This document shows, in pieces, positions 29,599 through 33,709 of a stretch of 64,000 nucleotides of DNA. Position 1 is the first letter of the stretch. The number at the start of each line of letters is the position of its first letter. The DNA is from Anaerolineae bacterium (lineage in GTDB: Bacteria > Chloroflexota > Anaerolineae > Aggregatilineales > Phototrophicaceae). Both the position numbers and the translations under genes were made by a program. The notes under the pieces are model-generated. The model did no database searches, was not told the DNA's origin, and saw only the letters and a list, made by a program, of their open reading frames with translations. The DNA lies in assembly GCA_013360465.1 (NCBI GenBank), contig JABWBO010000008.1:1-64000 (forward strand), read 5' to 3'.

Positions 29599-30099
29599 AT
29601 GCCTCCCTGGTGGGGAACACGTTCCAACGTCTCGAAGCGACTGCGACTCGAATACGAGGCGATGCGCGCCGCTTTCGGCAGCACCTTTCGGCTTCAAGTG
29701 CCCGACGATCCCAGGGAACCGCTGTTTTGGGTGGGCGAAGTGACGCTCAATCTGGTGAACGTCAAATGGAAGAAGTACCGCCCGGAACATGCGCTGAAAA
29801 TCCTTTACCCCGACGATTATCCCAATCGTCCCGCCGAAGCCTACGTACTCCAGCCGAAGATTTACAGCGAAAAGCACCAGTATGAAGACGGTCAGCTGTG
29901 CCTCTTCAACCCCAAGGATGGCGAGCGCTACGGCTGGAATCCGAGCGGATCGACGGCGGTGACGGTCTGCGCATGGGCGGTCCAGTGGTTGTATGCCTAC
30001 TACACCTGGAGAGATACGGGCGGGTGGCCCGGCATCGAGGAGCGGGTTGATCCTAATACGCCGCTCCCGCCGCGCCGCCGCCCCGCCAGTGATGAGTGA
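29599..30099 (+). CDS. E2 (ubiquitin-conjugating enzyme)-like protein
   Basis: 166 residues from ATG 29599 with AAGGA 9 bp upstream; an in-frame start 99 bp upstream has no ribosome site. The fold reads as an E2/UBC domain. An N-terminal helix (VSKRLRLEYEAMRAAF) leads into the meander strands. The E2 proline turn is LYPDDYPNRPAEAYV, and the active-site segment HQYEDGQLCLFNPKDGERYG places Cys101 as the thioester cysteine. The downstream helices STAVTVCAWAVQWLYAYYTW and the ending TGGWPG are typical of bacterial E2-like proteins encoded beside E1 and JAB genes. It should carry an activated small protein as a thioester. It is the first gene of a tightly packed operon. Confidence 0.85.
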   Translation: MPPWWGTRSNVSKRLRLEYEAMRAAFGSTFRLQVPDDPREPLFWVGEVTLNLVNVKWKKYRPEHALKILYPDDYPNRPAEAYVLQPKIYSEKHQYEDGQLCLFNPKDGERYGWNPSGSTAVTVCAWAVQWLYAYYTWRDTGGWPGIEERVDPNTPLPPRRRPASDE

Positions 30100-30108
30100 G
30101 GCGCAGAC

Positions 30109-31254
30109 ATGAAACTCAAACTGCTGGGACGCCGCAGCGACGCCGTCGTCCCTAATCTGGTCGTAGCCCGGCGGGTGATCGCGCGGATGATCGCCGCCGC
30201 GCAGAGTCACCTGGAAGACGAGACCGGCGAGGCGCTGGTCGGATTGATCATCCCCGACGAAGAGAGCGGCGGCGCGACGACGATCTACGTCCTCGACACC
30301 ATCGCGCCGGACGACAGCGCACTGCGTCTTTACCACACCTTCCAGCAGGGCGACGAGCTTCAGGACGAGCTGATCTGGTGGCTGCAAGAGAACTGGCGTA
30401 CCCACCGCCTGAGCCTGACGGGAGATCGCAAGCAGTTCGATGCGCCGCTGCGCTACCTGGGCGACTGGCACAAACAGCCGGGCTTTATGATCCAGCCGAG
30501 CGAAGGCGATCTGTTCACCGCCCTGGACTGGATCGATGATGAGAGCAACGGTATGAACTTCCTGCTCGCCCCTATCGTCACGCTGGGGCATCCTTCCAGC
30601 GCCGCCGCCGGGGGGAACTACCTGACCGCGCCGCTCAGCGAAGGCGCCGCGCTGCGCGTCGATTTTTGGTATATCGATGCGCAGAGTCAGGTCTTCCTGC
30701 CCATCGCGCCGGTTGAGTCTCCAAATGATCAGATCCCGTCGCTGGCGCCCTATCCCTGGCATCTGCTCGACGAAAAACGCTTCGCTTCCGAGGTGCGCAA
30801 GATCGAGGATGCGGGCTATTTCGTATCGCTCACGCTCTGGGATACGGACGGGGCGCTGCCGCTGGAGGTCTGCCTGCTGACGGCGCGCCTCGGCTCCGAC
30901 AACCTGCTGATCCTGGTCACCCCCTATGATTATCCGGCGCACCCGCCGACCGTGCGCATCGCTCCCTTCATCCACATGGGCGAGGATGACGATCTTTACG
31001 ATGTCTTCGCGGAAGCCTGGGAGCAGTCGGTCCCACCCCAGGAAGCCGCCCTCTTCAACCCGGAGGAAGGCTTGATCAGCCTGATCCACGCAGTCGATCC
31101 CCAACCAGAGCCGCCGAACCCGCCGTCGGAGCCATCGACACAGGATGCGCCAGCGCCCAACGCCGAACCGCCGAAGGCTGCGCCAGCACCTGCTTCATCG
31201 GACGCCGGTACAGCGCCGTCCGGCGAAATCTCGCAGCAGGAGGCGGCGTCATGA
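30109..31254 (+). CDS. JAB-domain protein with a second E2/RWD-like half
   Basis: 381 residues. The N-terminal JAB/MPN+ domain (about 15-150) has Glu41 in ETGEALVGLI and the motif YLGDWHKQPGFMIQPSEGD. The JAMM spacing H-x-H-x7-S-x2-D is kept exactly, with His121, Ser131 and Asp134, but the second His is Gln123. Residues about 222-330 look like an E2/RWD fold: FASEVRKIEDAGYFVSL, then TPYDYPAHPPTVRI, with no cysteine after the proline turn, so this half is probably non-catalytic. The last 50 residues are a Pro/Ala/Ser/Glu disordered tail. JAB proteins in such operons normally trim or remove ubiquitin-like tags. The 3' end overlaps the E1 start as ATGA. Confidence 0.8.
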   Translation: MKLKLLGRRSDAVVPNLVVARRVIARMIAAAQSHLEDETGEALVGLIIPDEESGGATTIYVLDTIAPDDSALRLYHTFQQGDELQDELIWWLQENWRTHRLSLTGDRKQFDAPLRYLGDWHKQPGFMIQPSEGDLFTALDWIDDESNGMNFLLAPIVTLGHPSSAAAGGNYLTAPLSEGAALRVDFWYIDAQSQVFLPIAPVESPNDQIPSLAPYPWHLLDEKRFASEVRKIEDAGYFVSLTLWDTDGALPLEVCLLTARLGSDNLLILVTPYDYPAHPPTVRIAPFIHMGEDDDLYDVFAEAWEQSVPPQEAALFNPEEGLISLIHAVDPQPEPPNPPSEPSTQDAPAPNAEPPKAAPAPASSDAGTAPSGEISQQEAAS

Positions 31255-32129
31255 CCTGGGATCGCGTGGAACGCCTGATCGGATCGGAGAATCTGGCGCG
31301 CTTGGCGACGCGGCGCGTCGGCGTGATCGGCTTGGGTTCCGGGGGCAGCTTCGTCGCCGTCAGCCTGGCGATGAGCGGCGTCAAACACTTCGCCCTGATC
31401 GACCCGGACGTGCTGGAAGAAACCAACATCCCGCGTCACGCCGCCGACCGGCGCTACCTCGGTTGGAATAAGGCGGAGGCGGTTGCCGATCTGATCCGGG
31501 CGCGCGTCGTAGACACCGACATCGCCGTCTTCCCCGGCAAATTCGAAGATCATCCGGAAGCCTTCGCCGGGCTGGACCTGCTGATCGTCGCCGTCGATAA
31601 CGAAAACGCCAAATATCGCATCAACCAGCGCTGCCTGGAATCGCGGCTGACCGCCGTCTACGCCGGAGTCTATGAGCGCGGCGAAGGCGGCGATGTCGTC
31701 ATCATCCATCCCTACGATGGACCGTGCTATGCCTGCTGGGCGGAAGAACTGCGCGCCGGGGCTGCGCCGGGAGACGATGACGCCGAACTCGATTATGGTA
31801 TGATCGGAAAAGCGGGCACGCTGGAAGCGGAGCCGGGGTTGTGGCTTCATGTCGTGCGCGTCGCTTCTGCCCAGGCGGATATGGCGCTGAACGAACTGCT
31901 GCGCGGGACCGCCGTTCATCGCCCCCTGCCAGGCAACACAGTGGTGATGGCGAACACGGCGATGGAGATCGTGCCCGGCGAACTAACGCTCCCTTATGCG
32001 GCGGAATGGTTCGCCATCGACCGCAGCCCGGGCTGTATGGTCTGCGGACTCGAAGAAGCAGACGCCGATCTTTCCCTTGATGAGCTGCTGTCGGCGCAGG
32101 GTGGAACCGGCGCTGTTCAGGAATCCTAG
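31251..32129 (+). CDS. E1-like (ThiF/MoeB family) adenylating enzyme
   Basis: 292 residues. Rossmann nucleotide loop GLGSGG (27-32), ATP-site Asp51 and Asp53 in LIDPDVLEETNIPRHA with Arg62, Lys74 in GWNKAEAV, and Asp116 in IVAVDNENAKYRINQ. Zinc cysteines are Cys159/Cys162 (PCYACW) and Cys262/Cys265 (GCMVC). The enzyme should adenylate the C-terminal carboxylate of a small protein. No cysteine is seen in the loop between about 166 and 258 where canonical E1s carry the thioester residue, and Cys128 occupies a position common in non-catalytic versions. Translationally coupled to the JAB gene. Confidence 0.88.
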   Translation: MTWDRVERLIGSENLARLATRRVGVIGLGSGGSFVAVSLAMSGVKHFALIDPDVLEETNIPRHAADRRYLGWNKAEAVADLIRARVVDTDIAVFPGKFEDHPEAFAGLDLLIVAVDNENAKYRINQRCLESRLTAVYAGVYERGEGGDVVIIHPYDGPCYACWAEELRAGAAPGDDDAELDYGMIGKAGTLEAEPGLWLHVVRVASAQADMALNELLRGTAVHRPLPGNTVVMANTAMEIVPGELTLPYAAEWFAIDRSPGCMVCGLEEADADLSLDELLSAQGGTGAVQES

Positions 32130-32142
32130 AGGTCAGATAACG

Positions 32143-32484
32143 ATGAGCGATCAATCCCCAACGACGCCCGTATCCGAGGAACCCGAAGCGCCCCAGACGA
32201 CGCCGAAGGCGTCTGTGCCGGCAGCGTCCGCACCTGCGGCATCGACACCCCCATCCGGGGCGCTTGACGACCAGGACGGACCGGACGAGCGCTACGGCGA
32301 GCGGCTGGAGCGGCTTGGCGGCGAACCTGCGCCGGTGATCACGCCGGACGAATTCGCCCGTTTGCAGCGCGCCGGACAGGTCCATATCGATGCGCGCGGG
32401 CGCGTACGCACCACCCGCCGAAGCGACGCCGAAGCAGGCGTTTCGCTCAAGAAGCGCCGAGCCTGGTACAAACCTCATGGGTGA
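32143..32484 (+). CDS. Small, mostly disordered protein ending in glycine (candidate modifier)
   Basis: 113 residues from ATG 32143 with AGAGG upstream; a longer in-frame version overlaps the E1 gene. Residues 1-48 are Pro/Thr/Ala/Ser/Glu-rich and low complexity. Residues 49-113 are charged: RYGERLERLGGEP, PVITPDEFARLQRAGQV, HIDARGRVRTTRRSD, ending KKRRAWYKPHG. It does not look like a beta-grasp ubiquitin fold. It is the only small protein in the operon, sits directly after the E1, and has a C-terminal Gly, which is what an E1 would adenylate. It could be the conjugated tag, a target-binding adaptor or a substrate. The function is inferred from position. Confidence 0.6.
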   Translation: MSDQSPTTPVSEEPEAPQTTPKASVPAASAPAASTPPSGALDDQDGPDERYGERLERLGGEPAPVITPDEFARLQRAGQVHIDARGRVRTTRRSDAEAGVSLKKRRAWYKPHG

Positions 32485-32491
32485 GTGAACA

Positions 32492-33709
32492 ATGAACGAC
32501 TCCGCGACCCCGACCATGCCCCGACCTTCCTCGCCGCCTACTCCGGAGCGGCTCGTGCAGTCGGTGAAAGCGCGGCTGGGTCGCATCGATCCTGAGGTCG
32601 AGGCGGCGCTGCTGAGCGTGCCGCGCGCCCATTTTCTGCCGGACCTATCGCCAGAGATGGTCTACAGTGACTCCGCCTTCCCCCTCAAACGAGCGATGGA
32701 TGGCACGGTGACCAGTTCCGCCAGCCAGCCCACCTGCGTCGCCATGATGCTGCAGCAGCTGCAGCTTCGCTCTGGCGACAACGTGCTGGAGATCGGCGCA
32801 GGAAGCGGGTACAGCGCCGCCATCATACAGCACATCGTGGGCGACCAGGGGCACGTGACCAGCGTCGAGGTCGATCCAGAGGTGGCGGAGATCGCTCAGG
32901 CGAATTTACAGCGCGCCGCTATGACATCGGTCAATATCGTGCAGGGCGATGGCTTACAAGGCTACGCGCCCCGCGCCGCCTATGATCGCATCCTGGCGAC
33001 CGCCGCCGTCTGGGATATCCCCCGCACCTGGCTGCGCCAGCTTCGTCCAGGAGGCAGGCTGGTCGCGCCGGTGTTCGTCGAGGGCTTCCAGTTGAGCGGG
33101 GCGTTCGTGGCACAGCGCGACGGCACGCTGCTCAGCGATGAAAACCGGGTCTGCCTGTTCGTCTGGATGCAGCGTCAGCGAGTCCCACATCAATCAAGCG
33201 CCGGCTTGGCTCAGGCGCTTTCGCTCCCGGTCCCCGGCGGACTGTTCCTGGAAACCGACGCCGCGATGGACTCCGCCGCCGCCGCCCACCTGTTGAGCCA
33301 TGACGCGGAAGAGGGCTACATTGACACACCGCCGCAGTGGACCGAGCTGTGGCGGAATTTTCTGCCCTGGCTGGCGCTGCATCGCCCGATGGATATTCAT
33401 CTCACCGGCTATCGCAGCGAAGGCAGCGCTTACGGACTCGAAGGCAGCGGATTCGCGCTGCTGGCTCCGGGGAGCGCCTGCTTCGTCCAGTTAAGCGATC
33501 CGCCGCGCGTGCGTTACTTCGGCGCTGCCGATACCTATCTGACGCTGCATGACATGCTTGACGCCTGGCGTACCGCCGGTCGTCCAGGACAGGACAGCAT
33601 CCGCCTGCGTCTCATCCCCATCGACGCGCAGCCCGCCGGAACCGGCGATCTCGGCGGACGAACGCTGCGCCGCACCGATCACCTGCTGCACATCTGGATG
33701 GAAGTGTAG
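32492..33709 (+). CDS. pcm: Protein-L-isoaspartate O-methyltransferase with C-terminal extension
   Basis: 405 residues, starting 7 bp after the small-protein stop. The AdoMet site is NVLEIGAGSGYSAAI, preceded by PRAHFLP and the substrate-loop motif MVYSDSAFPL / TSSASQPTCVAMML, as in PIMT enzymes that methylate damaged aspartyl residues to start repair. Usual PIMTs are about 210-220 residues; here about 180 residues follow (PPQWTELWRNFLPWLALHRP, YGLEGSGFALLAPG), a region seen in actinobacterial/Chloroflexi-type long PIMTs. Its place as last gene of the ubiquitin-like operon suggests a link between damaged-protein recognition and tagging. Confidence 0.88.
   Translation: MNDSATPTMPRPSSPPTPERLVQSVKARLGRIDPEVEAALLSVPRAHFLPDLSPEMVYSDSAFPLKRAMDGTVTSSASQPTCVAMMLQQLQLRSGDNVLEIGAGSGYSAAIIQHIVGDQGHVTSVEVDPEVAEIAQANLQRAAMTSVNIVQGDGLQGYAPRAAYDRILATAAVWDIPRTWLRQLRPGGRLVAPVFVEGFQLSGAFVAQRDGTLLSDENRVCLFVWMQRQRVPHQSSAGLAQALSLPVPGGLFLETDAAMDSAAAAHLLSHDAEEGYIDTPPQWTELWRNFLPWLALHRPMDIHLTGYRSEGSAYGLEGSGFALLAPGSACFVQLSDPPRVRYFGAADTYLTLHDMLDAWRTAGRPGQDSIRLRLIPIDAQPAGTGDLGGRTLRRTDHLLHIWMEV

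Follow-up and report, generated by a model that had tools for sequence, protein, structure and literature searches.

The 64,000-nucleotide stretch analysed here, referred to as the window, comprises positions 1 to 64,000 of contig JABWBO010000008.1 from an Anaerolineae bacterium (GCA_013360465.1) of the order Aggregatilineales. It encodes a five-gene operon (Table 1) that combines genes for a ubiquitin (Ub)-activating-like protein (E1), a Ub-conjugating-like protein (E2) and a JAB protein with a small protein, which we have designated SML and which is a candidate modifier, and a protein-isoaspartate-methyltransferase-like (PIMT) protein. The original prediction described five genes in one orientation with gaps of 7–13 bp or an ATGA overlap, and took them for a Ub-like conjugation operon lacking a beta-grasp modifier, whose tag would be either SML or a protein encoded elsewhere. 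The layout was confirmed, with gaps of 9 bp (E2/JAB), 13 bp (E1/SML) and 7 bp (SML/PIMT) and a 4 bp ATGA overlap between JAB and E1.

Table 1. Genes, domains and motifs of the operon
Feature	Position (bp)	Strand	Length	Description
E2	29599-30099	+	166 aa	E2-like protein
E2 active site	29899-29901	+		Motif H93-Q-x-x-D-G-Q-L-C101-L, from the alignment of relatives; codon of the putative catalytic Cys101
JAB	30109-31254	+	381 aa	Predicted JAB/JAMM (MPN) protein with C-terminal RWD-like domain, from AlphaFold model, fold match and PADLOC
JAMM-type motif	30466-30510	+		W-H121-K-Q123-P ... P-S131-x-G-D134; Gln replaces the second metal-binding His
RWD/E2-like domain	30736-31098	+		Likely domain without catalytic Cys; JAB residues ~210–330, D-YP-x-x-PP motif
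E1	31251-32129	+	292 aa	E1/ThiF/MccB-like adenylating enzyme; CxxC pairs C159/C162 and C262/C265; C-terminal SLDELL tail
SML	32143-32484	+	113 aa	Small protein, candidate modifier
SML conserved module	32299-32469	+	57 residues	Ends KKRRAWY
SML tail	32470-32481	+		Unconserved KPHG, beyond the conserved end
PIMT	32492-33709	+	405 aa	PIMT-like methyltransferase with ~180-aa C-terminal extension, from PCMT match and distribution; accessory in families f1 and f4

Relatives were analysed in a set of 61 genomes (the window's genome and 60 relatives), in 154 genomes of the order, and in a gene-order survey of 80 loci fetched from 73 genomes of the order, the families of which were labelled f1 to f8. 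At 40 relative loci chosen by their E1 match, tblastn found relatives of E2 in 38, of JAB in all 40, of SML in 33 and of PIMT in 25, and because these genes recur the grouping is not a chance one. The five-gene layout of the original prediction was general as far as E2-JAB-E1-SML is concerned, whereas its PIMT part was observed only in f1 and f4.

SML proved to be the most conserved part of the operon. The earlier description of a disordered small protein fits its N-terminal half, which is variable and rich in Pro, Ala, Glu and Asp (33% mean identity, 18% Pro), but not its C-terminal 57 residues, for which mean pairwise identity was 80% over 32 rows that include the window; the corresponding values were 68% for E2, 60% for E1 and 44% for JAB. 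Among 108 distinct SML sequences the conserved end read RKRRAWY in 97, KKRRAWY in 10 and RKRRAWF in one; these counts are conditional on the regular expression used for selection, [RK]KR[RK][AS][WF][YF], which missed TKRRAWY at loci L030 and L128 and RRRRAWY, with a tail of five residues, at L103. The residues beyond this end were unconserved and numbered 0 (5 sequences), 1 (27), 2 (24), 3 (36) or up to 22. The boundary was also seen independently of the expression, as all 135 best SML profile matches reached model position 102–103 of 104 with the exception of that in genome G381, which was cut at the end of its contig. The residue after the conserved Tyr was G or A in 61/108 sequences and G, A, V, D or E in 86/108. 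As GNN codons specify all five, their frequency could stem from the ribosome site of the following gene; a C-terminal G/A is therefore not claimed as the mature end of SML.

A structural model of SML (mean predicted local distance difference test score (pLDDT) 67.9; 86–90 over residues 61–90) contained helices at residues 47–57, 68–76 and 102–107 and a hairpin of two 3-residue strands, with no beta-grasp fold. Searches of SML against Pfam and PADLOC gave no match and NCBIfam only BimA (0.058); the best PDB profile match, CodY (E 0.018), was treated as chance. The WY-x end of SML resembles the proteasome-linked HbYX motif. A proteasome link was nevertheless rejected, as PF00227 was found in 0/61 genomes though it was detected in 10/14 control genomes.

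A profile search of the 154 genomes of the order revealed SML in 135 and E2 in 135, with both in 130, SML only in 5, E2 only in 5 and neither in 14; the 14 include every one of the 12 f2, f5 and f6 genomes. A single SML match per genome was found in 134 of the 135 positives. Among 301 genomes sampled from the phylum, SML was present in two (the window's own and G029) and E2 in six. In the 61-genome set, E1 gave a long match (1.3e-79 or better) in 49 and a short piece (50–82% identity) in 4, the remaining 8 genomes, from f2, f5 and f6, having weaker ThiF-type matches only. In a tree of 68 E1 rows, that of the window among them, f1, f3, f4 and f7 each fell on one side of a branch and f8 required two changes; this congruence with the families supports vertical inheritance. 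Judged from these sequence matches, the pathway would be present in almost every sampled member of five families of a single order.

SML relatives were encoded by 125 stretches in genomic contigs, and the labels of the 80 that were kept were Chloroflexi/Chloroflexota, Anaerolineae or a taxon inside, except for L129 and L130; L122 was labelled Aggregatilineales and L184 Thermoflexus, which we take to belong to Chloroflexota. L129 (labelled Bacteroidetes) and L130 (labelled Pleurocapsa minor) carry the SML of the order, probably because the assemblies are mislabelled or contaminated. Of the 80 fetched loci, 66 had both E1 and SML, adjacent at 58 and apart at 8 (in G416, G029, G021, G024, G016, G030, G042 and G020); the latter number is not a rate, since the SML stretches of all eight were fetched after profile searches had shown the separation. 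SML was thus retained in 8 genomes in which it is unlinked from E2-JAB-E1.

The E2, JAB and E1 folds assigned in the original prediction were upheld by PADLOC and Pfam matches, by invariant active-site residues and by comparison of the JAB model with BRCC36. The E2 product matched the PADLOC E2 profile (1.5e-14) and, in phmmer/hmmsearch searches of the PDB, eukaryotic and bacterial E2s, while Pfam E2 families, including Prok-E2, gave no match at E up to 1. Residues C101, H93, D97, G98 and L100 were invariant in 39/39 aligned rows, and the protein combines E2 profile similarity with the Cys in an H..DG.LC context by which the E2 family is recognised. The ATG at 29,599 bp is supported as the start of E2 because W4, W5 and G6 were also kept in 39/39 rows.

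By its sequence E1 is a ThiF-type adenylating domain with the residues of the nucleotide site: it matched Pfam ThiF (1.2e-29) and PADLOC E1-E2 (7.9e-24), its closest PDB matches by sequence profile were MccB, ThiF and UBA5 (4.5e-18 to 9.6e-18), and GxGSGG, D51, N59, R62, K74, D116 and both CxxC pairs were invariant in the aligned rows.

JAB is predicted to have the MPN/JAMM fold. Residues 14–208 of its AlphaFold model (pLDDT 83.3) resembled BRCC36/Rpn11 with Z up to 15.8, the best match being 5cw3_C (Z 15.8, root-mean-square deviation 2.9, 151 aligned, 14% identity), and the product matched PADLOC JAB at 4.6e-8; Pfam Prok-JAB reached 0.048 only, under the family cut-off. The intact E...HxH...S..D metal site is not present in the window JAB, which reads HKQP. 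Position 123 was Gln in 37/40 and His in 3/40 non-gap aligned rows. In the gene-order survey, HKHP was found at 8/8 f7 loci and one f1 locus and HKQP at 43 f1, 8 f3, 2 f4 and 4 f8 loci, two loci having no readable motif. The C-terminal domain of JAB is likely RWD-like, as the model has the alpha-beta4-alpha-alpha order, and the sequence the YPxxPP motif, of RWD/E2-like domains; hhalign against the E2 profile gave a weak match (E 0.002, probability 14%).

The absence of a beta-grasp gene in close linkage was borne out, relatives included, by searches of the 61 genomes with PF02597 and PF00240. ThiS-family (PF02597) proteins were found in 60/61 genomes. Among the matches listed (to E 0.019), that closest to an operon on the same contig was G019:C71:184-426, ~9.7 kb from E2, followed by one in G035 ~55 kb from the operon, the others being farther away or on other contigs; many contigs are short. 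No protein of the 61 genomes exceeded the PF00240 cut-off, the control being weak (2/14 detected, none over the cut-off), and a Ub-like protein (Ubl) too divergent for both families would escape detection. The window's genome has two ThiS-family proteins over the cut-off, and a ThiS-family gene on its contig C84 lies ~1 kb from a different E1-like match. ThiS-family proteins also occur in 7/8 genomes of f2, f5 and f6, which are without the operon.

A pair of tandem, putatively membrane-anchored proteins with N-terminal hydrophobic stretches (judged by eye), here called c12, was linked to the operon in several families and had a distribution close to that of the operon. It lay upstream of E2 in 8/9 f3, 6/8 f7, 3/4 f8, 1/3 f4 and 0/49 f1 genomes, and the pair tested matched no Pfam family over the cut-off. 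c12 was found in 52/61 genomes; the nine without it are the 8 genomes that lack E2 and SML, and G002, which carries the operon. In f1, no gene other than c12 itself was common to more than 4/10 c12 loci. The window genome's own pair lies on a contig other than the operon's (L213, 5289–6934 bp, G000:C91). The motif SLx[DE]L, which was picked after inspecting the sequences, occurred in the last 60 residues of 33/34 c12 open reading frames (ORFs) and 47/67 E1s (68 minus one non-orthologue without it), against a background, unverified frames included, of 2/592 other clustered ORFs and 4/924 non-system ORFs. A looser tail motif was present in 33/34 c12 ORFs, 57/68 E1s and 25/592 other clustered ORFs. 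Of the 237 stop-to-stop frames of more than ~100 codons in the window, only E1 had SLx[DE]L.

PIMT matched Pfam PCMT over residues 21–226 (1.6e-49) and the FxLD-system methyltransferase at 222 bits, under the cut-off of 320. It followed SML in 45/49 f1 and 3/3 f4 genomes and in 0/21 f3, f7 and f8 genomes. A separate, ordinary-length member of the PCMT family is encoded on contig C158 of the window's genome. In relatives the operon is often followed by a NUDIX gene. From this distribution PIMT and NUDIX appear to be accessories, PIMT lying outside the general core. A role as an isoaspartate-damage receptor, by analogy with human PCMTD1-Cul5, would be speculation only, because PIMT is not seen in f3, f7 and f8; it had no direct support among the literature matches listed. 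The recurrent neighbours besides c12, NUDIX and PIMT were assessed only by eye, and no CD-NTase or effector was recognised among them. Divergent from E2, the window encodes an ABC substrate-binding protein and a permease that look ferric-type by eye (28,274–29,326 bp and 26,524–28,227 bp, both on the minus strand); similar ABC genes adjoin E2 in several relatives.

A mobile or phage origin was rejected, as pattern scans of viral contigs gave no relatives of E2 or SML and an E1 search of plasmids, the only query used there, gave 296 matching records, all below 60% identity; the 8 of these that were listed are annotated as ThiF or HesA/MoeB/ThiF family. On a Bradyrhizobium plasmid (L225, 4933–11,303 bp), an E1 31% identical to that of the window stands in a consecutive series of Mov34/MPN, hypothetical, ThiF, hypothetical, dsDNA-nuclease-domain and TIR genes. 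JAB-E2 operons that include SPFH, TPR or RWD proteins were seen in two genomes from a different class of the phylum (L189, 3950–8632 bp; L190, 2680–9670 bp), with ThiF in L190; neither genome was among the SML matches of the phylum search. In L191, L192, L193 and L194, short operons, CBASS-like by eye (cyclic oligonucleotide-based anti-phage signalling system), had an E2 adjoining a nucleotidyltransferase-like protein that ends HRYFG(G/R) or HRFYGD.

We consider the best explanation, at a confidence just short of even, to be that the operon encodes a pathway for Ub-like conjugation, vertically inherited in a single Anaerolineae order, whose likely modifier is SML, a protein without a beta-grasp fold. 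Between the two options of the original prediction, that of SML as the tag gained support from its co-occurrence with E2, its C-terminal boundary and its conservation. The core of SML is more conserved than the enzymes of the operon, as is ubiquitin relative to its own. The persistence of SML in the 8 genomes where it lies away from E2-JAB-E1 also speaks for this reading. In the sequences compared, conservation stops abruptly at RRAWY. A precedent for conjugating a protein without a beta-grasp fold via its C-terminus is the cGAS of CBASS (available text of PMC10097602).

In the mechanism we propose, E1 would adenylate the C-terminus of SML, at Tyr109 or the next small residue, and SML would move to Cys101 of E2, perhaps straight from the adenylate, a direct transfer proposed because no catalytic Cys is conserved in E1. 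E2 would then join SML to an amine on targets, JAB would trim the variable SML tail and/or take SML off targets, and c12, through the SLx[DE]L tail in common with E1, may locate the reaction at the membrane. The adenylation, SML~E2, trimming and target-choice steps are all inferred. More tentative is the full picture of a new ~57-residue modifier unrelated to ubiquitin and ending -RRAWY(G/A), with JAMM-like maturation, an MccB-like E1 without catalytic Cys, a canonical E2 and a core housekeeping function at the membrane, which would make this a bacterial ubiquitin system that re-invented its tag.

Several observations weigh against SML as the modifier. Its conserved end is aromatic and is followed by G or A in only the 61 sequences noted above, while Ub ends in GG. 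Beyond the two CxxC pairs there is no invariant Cys in 41 E1 rows (C128 is present in 29/41), and the second JAMM His is Gln in most lineages, so that peptidase activity of JAB is doubtful; these two are the main obstacles, both arguing against a simple canonical chemistry. Where SML stands apart from E2-JAB-E1 it still adjoins PIMT and/or NUDIX. The co-occurrence of SML and E2 is largely one clade pattern, that of the 12 f2/f5/f6 genomes, rather than many independent gains or losses, and the ThiS-family proteins elsewhere in the genomes keep a tag encoded away from the operon in play.

SML could instead be an adaptor, an E3-like factor or a regulator, with a ThiS/MoaD beta-grasp protein or an unrecognised Ubl encoded elsewhere as the true modifier, which we regard as unlikely though deserving of attention. 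The genomes offer candidates for such a modifier (two ThiS-family proteins in the window's genome and at least one in 60/61 genomes, that of G019 ~9.7 kb off), SML parts from E2-JAB-E1 in some lineages, and its basic RKRRAWY end might serve as a peptide for binding. However, no ThiS-family gene recurs beside the operon, that on C84 has a different E1-like match for a neighbour, the family also occurs in 7/8 of the f2/f5/f6 genomes, which are without the operon, and SML is the most conserved component compared. A narrower role, in which a self-conjugation resembling that of Atg8 or CBASS attaches SML to one dedicated partner, such as the c12 pair or a lipid, instead of to many proteins, seems improbable. 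It would account for the absence of c12 from the 8 genomes without E2/SML, its position beside E2 in most f3, f7 and f8 genomes and the tail motif that c12 has in common with E1, but c12 is never beside E2 in f1, G002 carries the operon and gave no c12 match, the motif was picked once the sequences had been viewed, and a bond between SML and c12 is only conjectural.

We find it more doubtful still that the operon makes a ribosomally synthesised and post-translationally modified peptide (RiPP), with E1 adenylating the SML C-terminus for a small group as MccB does, PIMT methylating SML, and E2 and JAB repurposed. In favour of it, MccB ties with ThiF as the top PDB match of E1, in which no catalytic Cys is conserved; PIMT has a resemblance, below the cut-off, to FxLD-system methyltransferases; and SML away from E1 keeps PIMT and/or NUDIX adjacent. 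E2 nevertheless retains its active-site residues, PIMT is missing beside SML in 21/21 f3, f7 and f8 genomes, and SML is near-invariant and single-copy, unlike typical RiPP precursors. An anti-phage system of the Bil or CBASS type is very improbable: homologous enzymes do occur in defence operons (PADLOC matches), CBASS-like neighbours were seen by eye in L191–L194 and plasmid relatives stand beside SAVED or TIR genes, but against this SML and E2 are near-universal in the order, the E1 tree is congruent with the families, viral scans gave no relatives and no effector was recognised by eye among the recurrent neighbours.

Among known systems, Pup and UBact also are small, partly disordered modifiers without a beta-grasp fold. 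Pup works with PafA/Dop and the proteasome, whereas no proteasome-family PF00227 was found in the 61 genomes here. MccB, ThiF, MoeB and UBA5 are the closest solved structures of the window E1, which is here paired with E2 and JAB. Genes for E1-like, E2-like and JAB proteins stand together also in the operon classes 6a–6e of Iyer et al. 2006 (PMC1779556) and in Bil (BilABCD; PMC11354881). The available text of the former reports these classes as sporadic, names no Ubl for 6a–6c, assigns beta-grasp Ubls to 6d and 6e and places RWD-like proteins in 6e, and Bil as described includes a beta-grasp Ubl. Type II CBASS Cap2-Cap3 likewise unites E1, E2 and JAB, and the protein conjugated, cGAS, is without a beta-grasp fold and is joined via its C-terminal G/A (available text of PMC10097602). 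The earlier statement that such operons normally include a beta-grasp protein is thus not supported, in view of classes 6a–6c and of CBASS, and because of these two cases the lack of a beta-grasp gene is no novelty on its own.

Unlike Cap2-Cap3, the operon described here encodes E1 and E2 as separate proteins, has no conserved catalytic Cys in E1 and is near-universal in its clade; neither a cyclase nor an effector was recognised by eye, and the conservation of SML ends in an aromatic pair, not in G/A. SML, the putative JAB-RWD fusion, PIMT and the c12 pair set it apart from classes 6a–6e and Bil as described in the text available, as does its near-universal presence from the sporadic 6a–6e operons. 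The operon was not described among the matches listed in the open-licence literature, preprints excluded, on bacterial E1/E2/JAB or Ubl systems, and three features appear, within that literature, to be new: vertical inheritance with near-universal presence, the strong conservation of SML and the tail motif that c12 has in common with E1.

Bacterial E1/E2/JAB systems have been described as sporadic or anti-phage (available text of PMC1779556, PMC10097602 and PMC11354881). If the interpretation of SML as the modifier is correct, this order would offer a housekeeping bacterial conjugation system to study, in which the most conserved component is not a beta-grasp protein. The enzymes of ubiquitin conjugation would then be separable from the ubiquitin fold.

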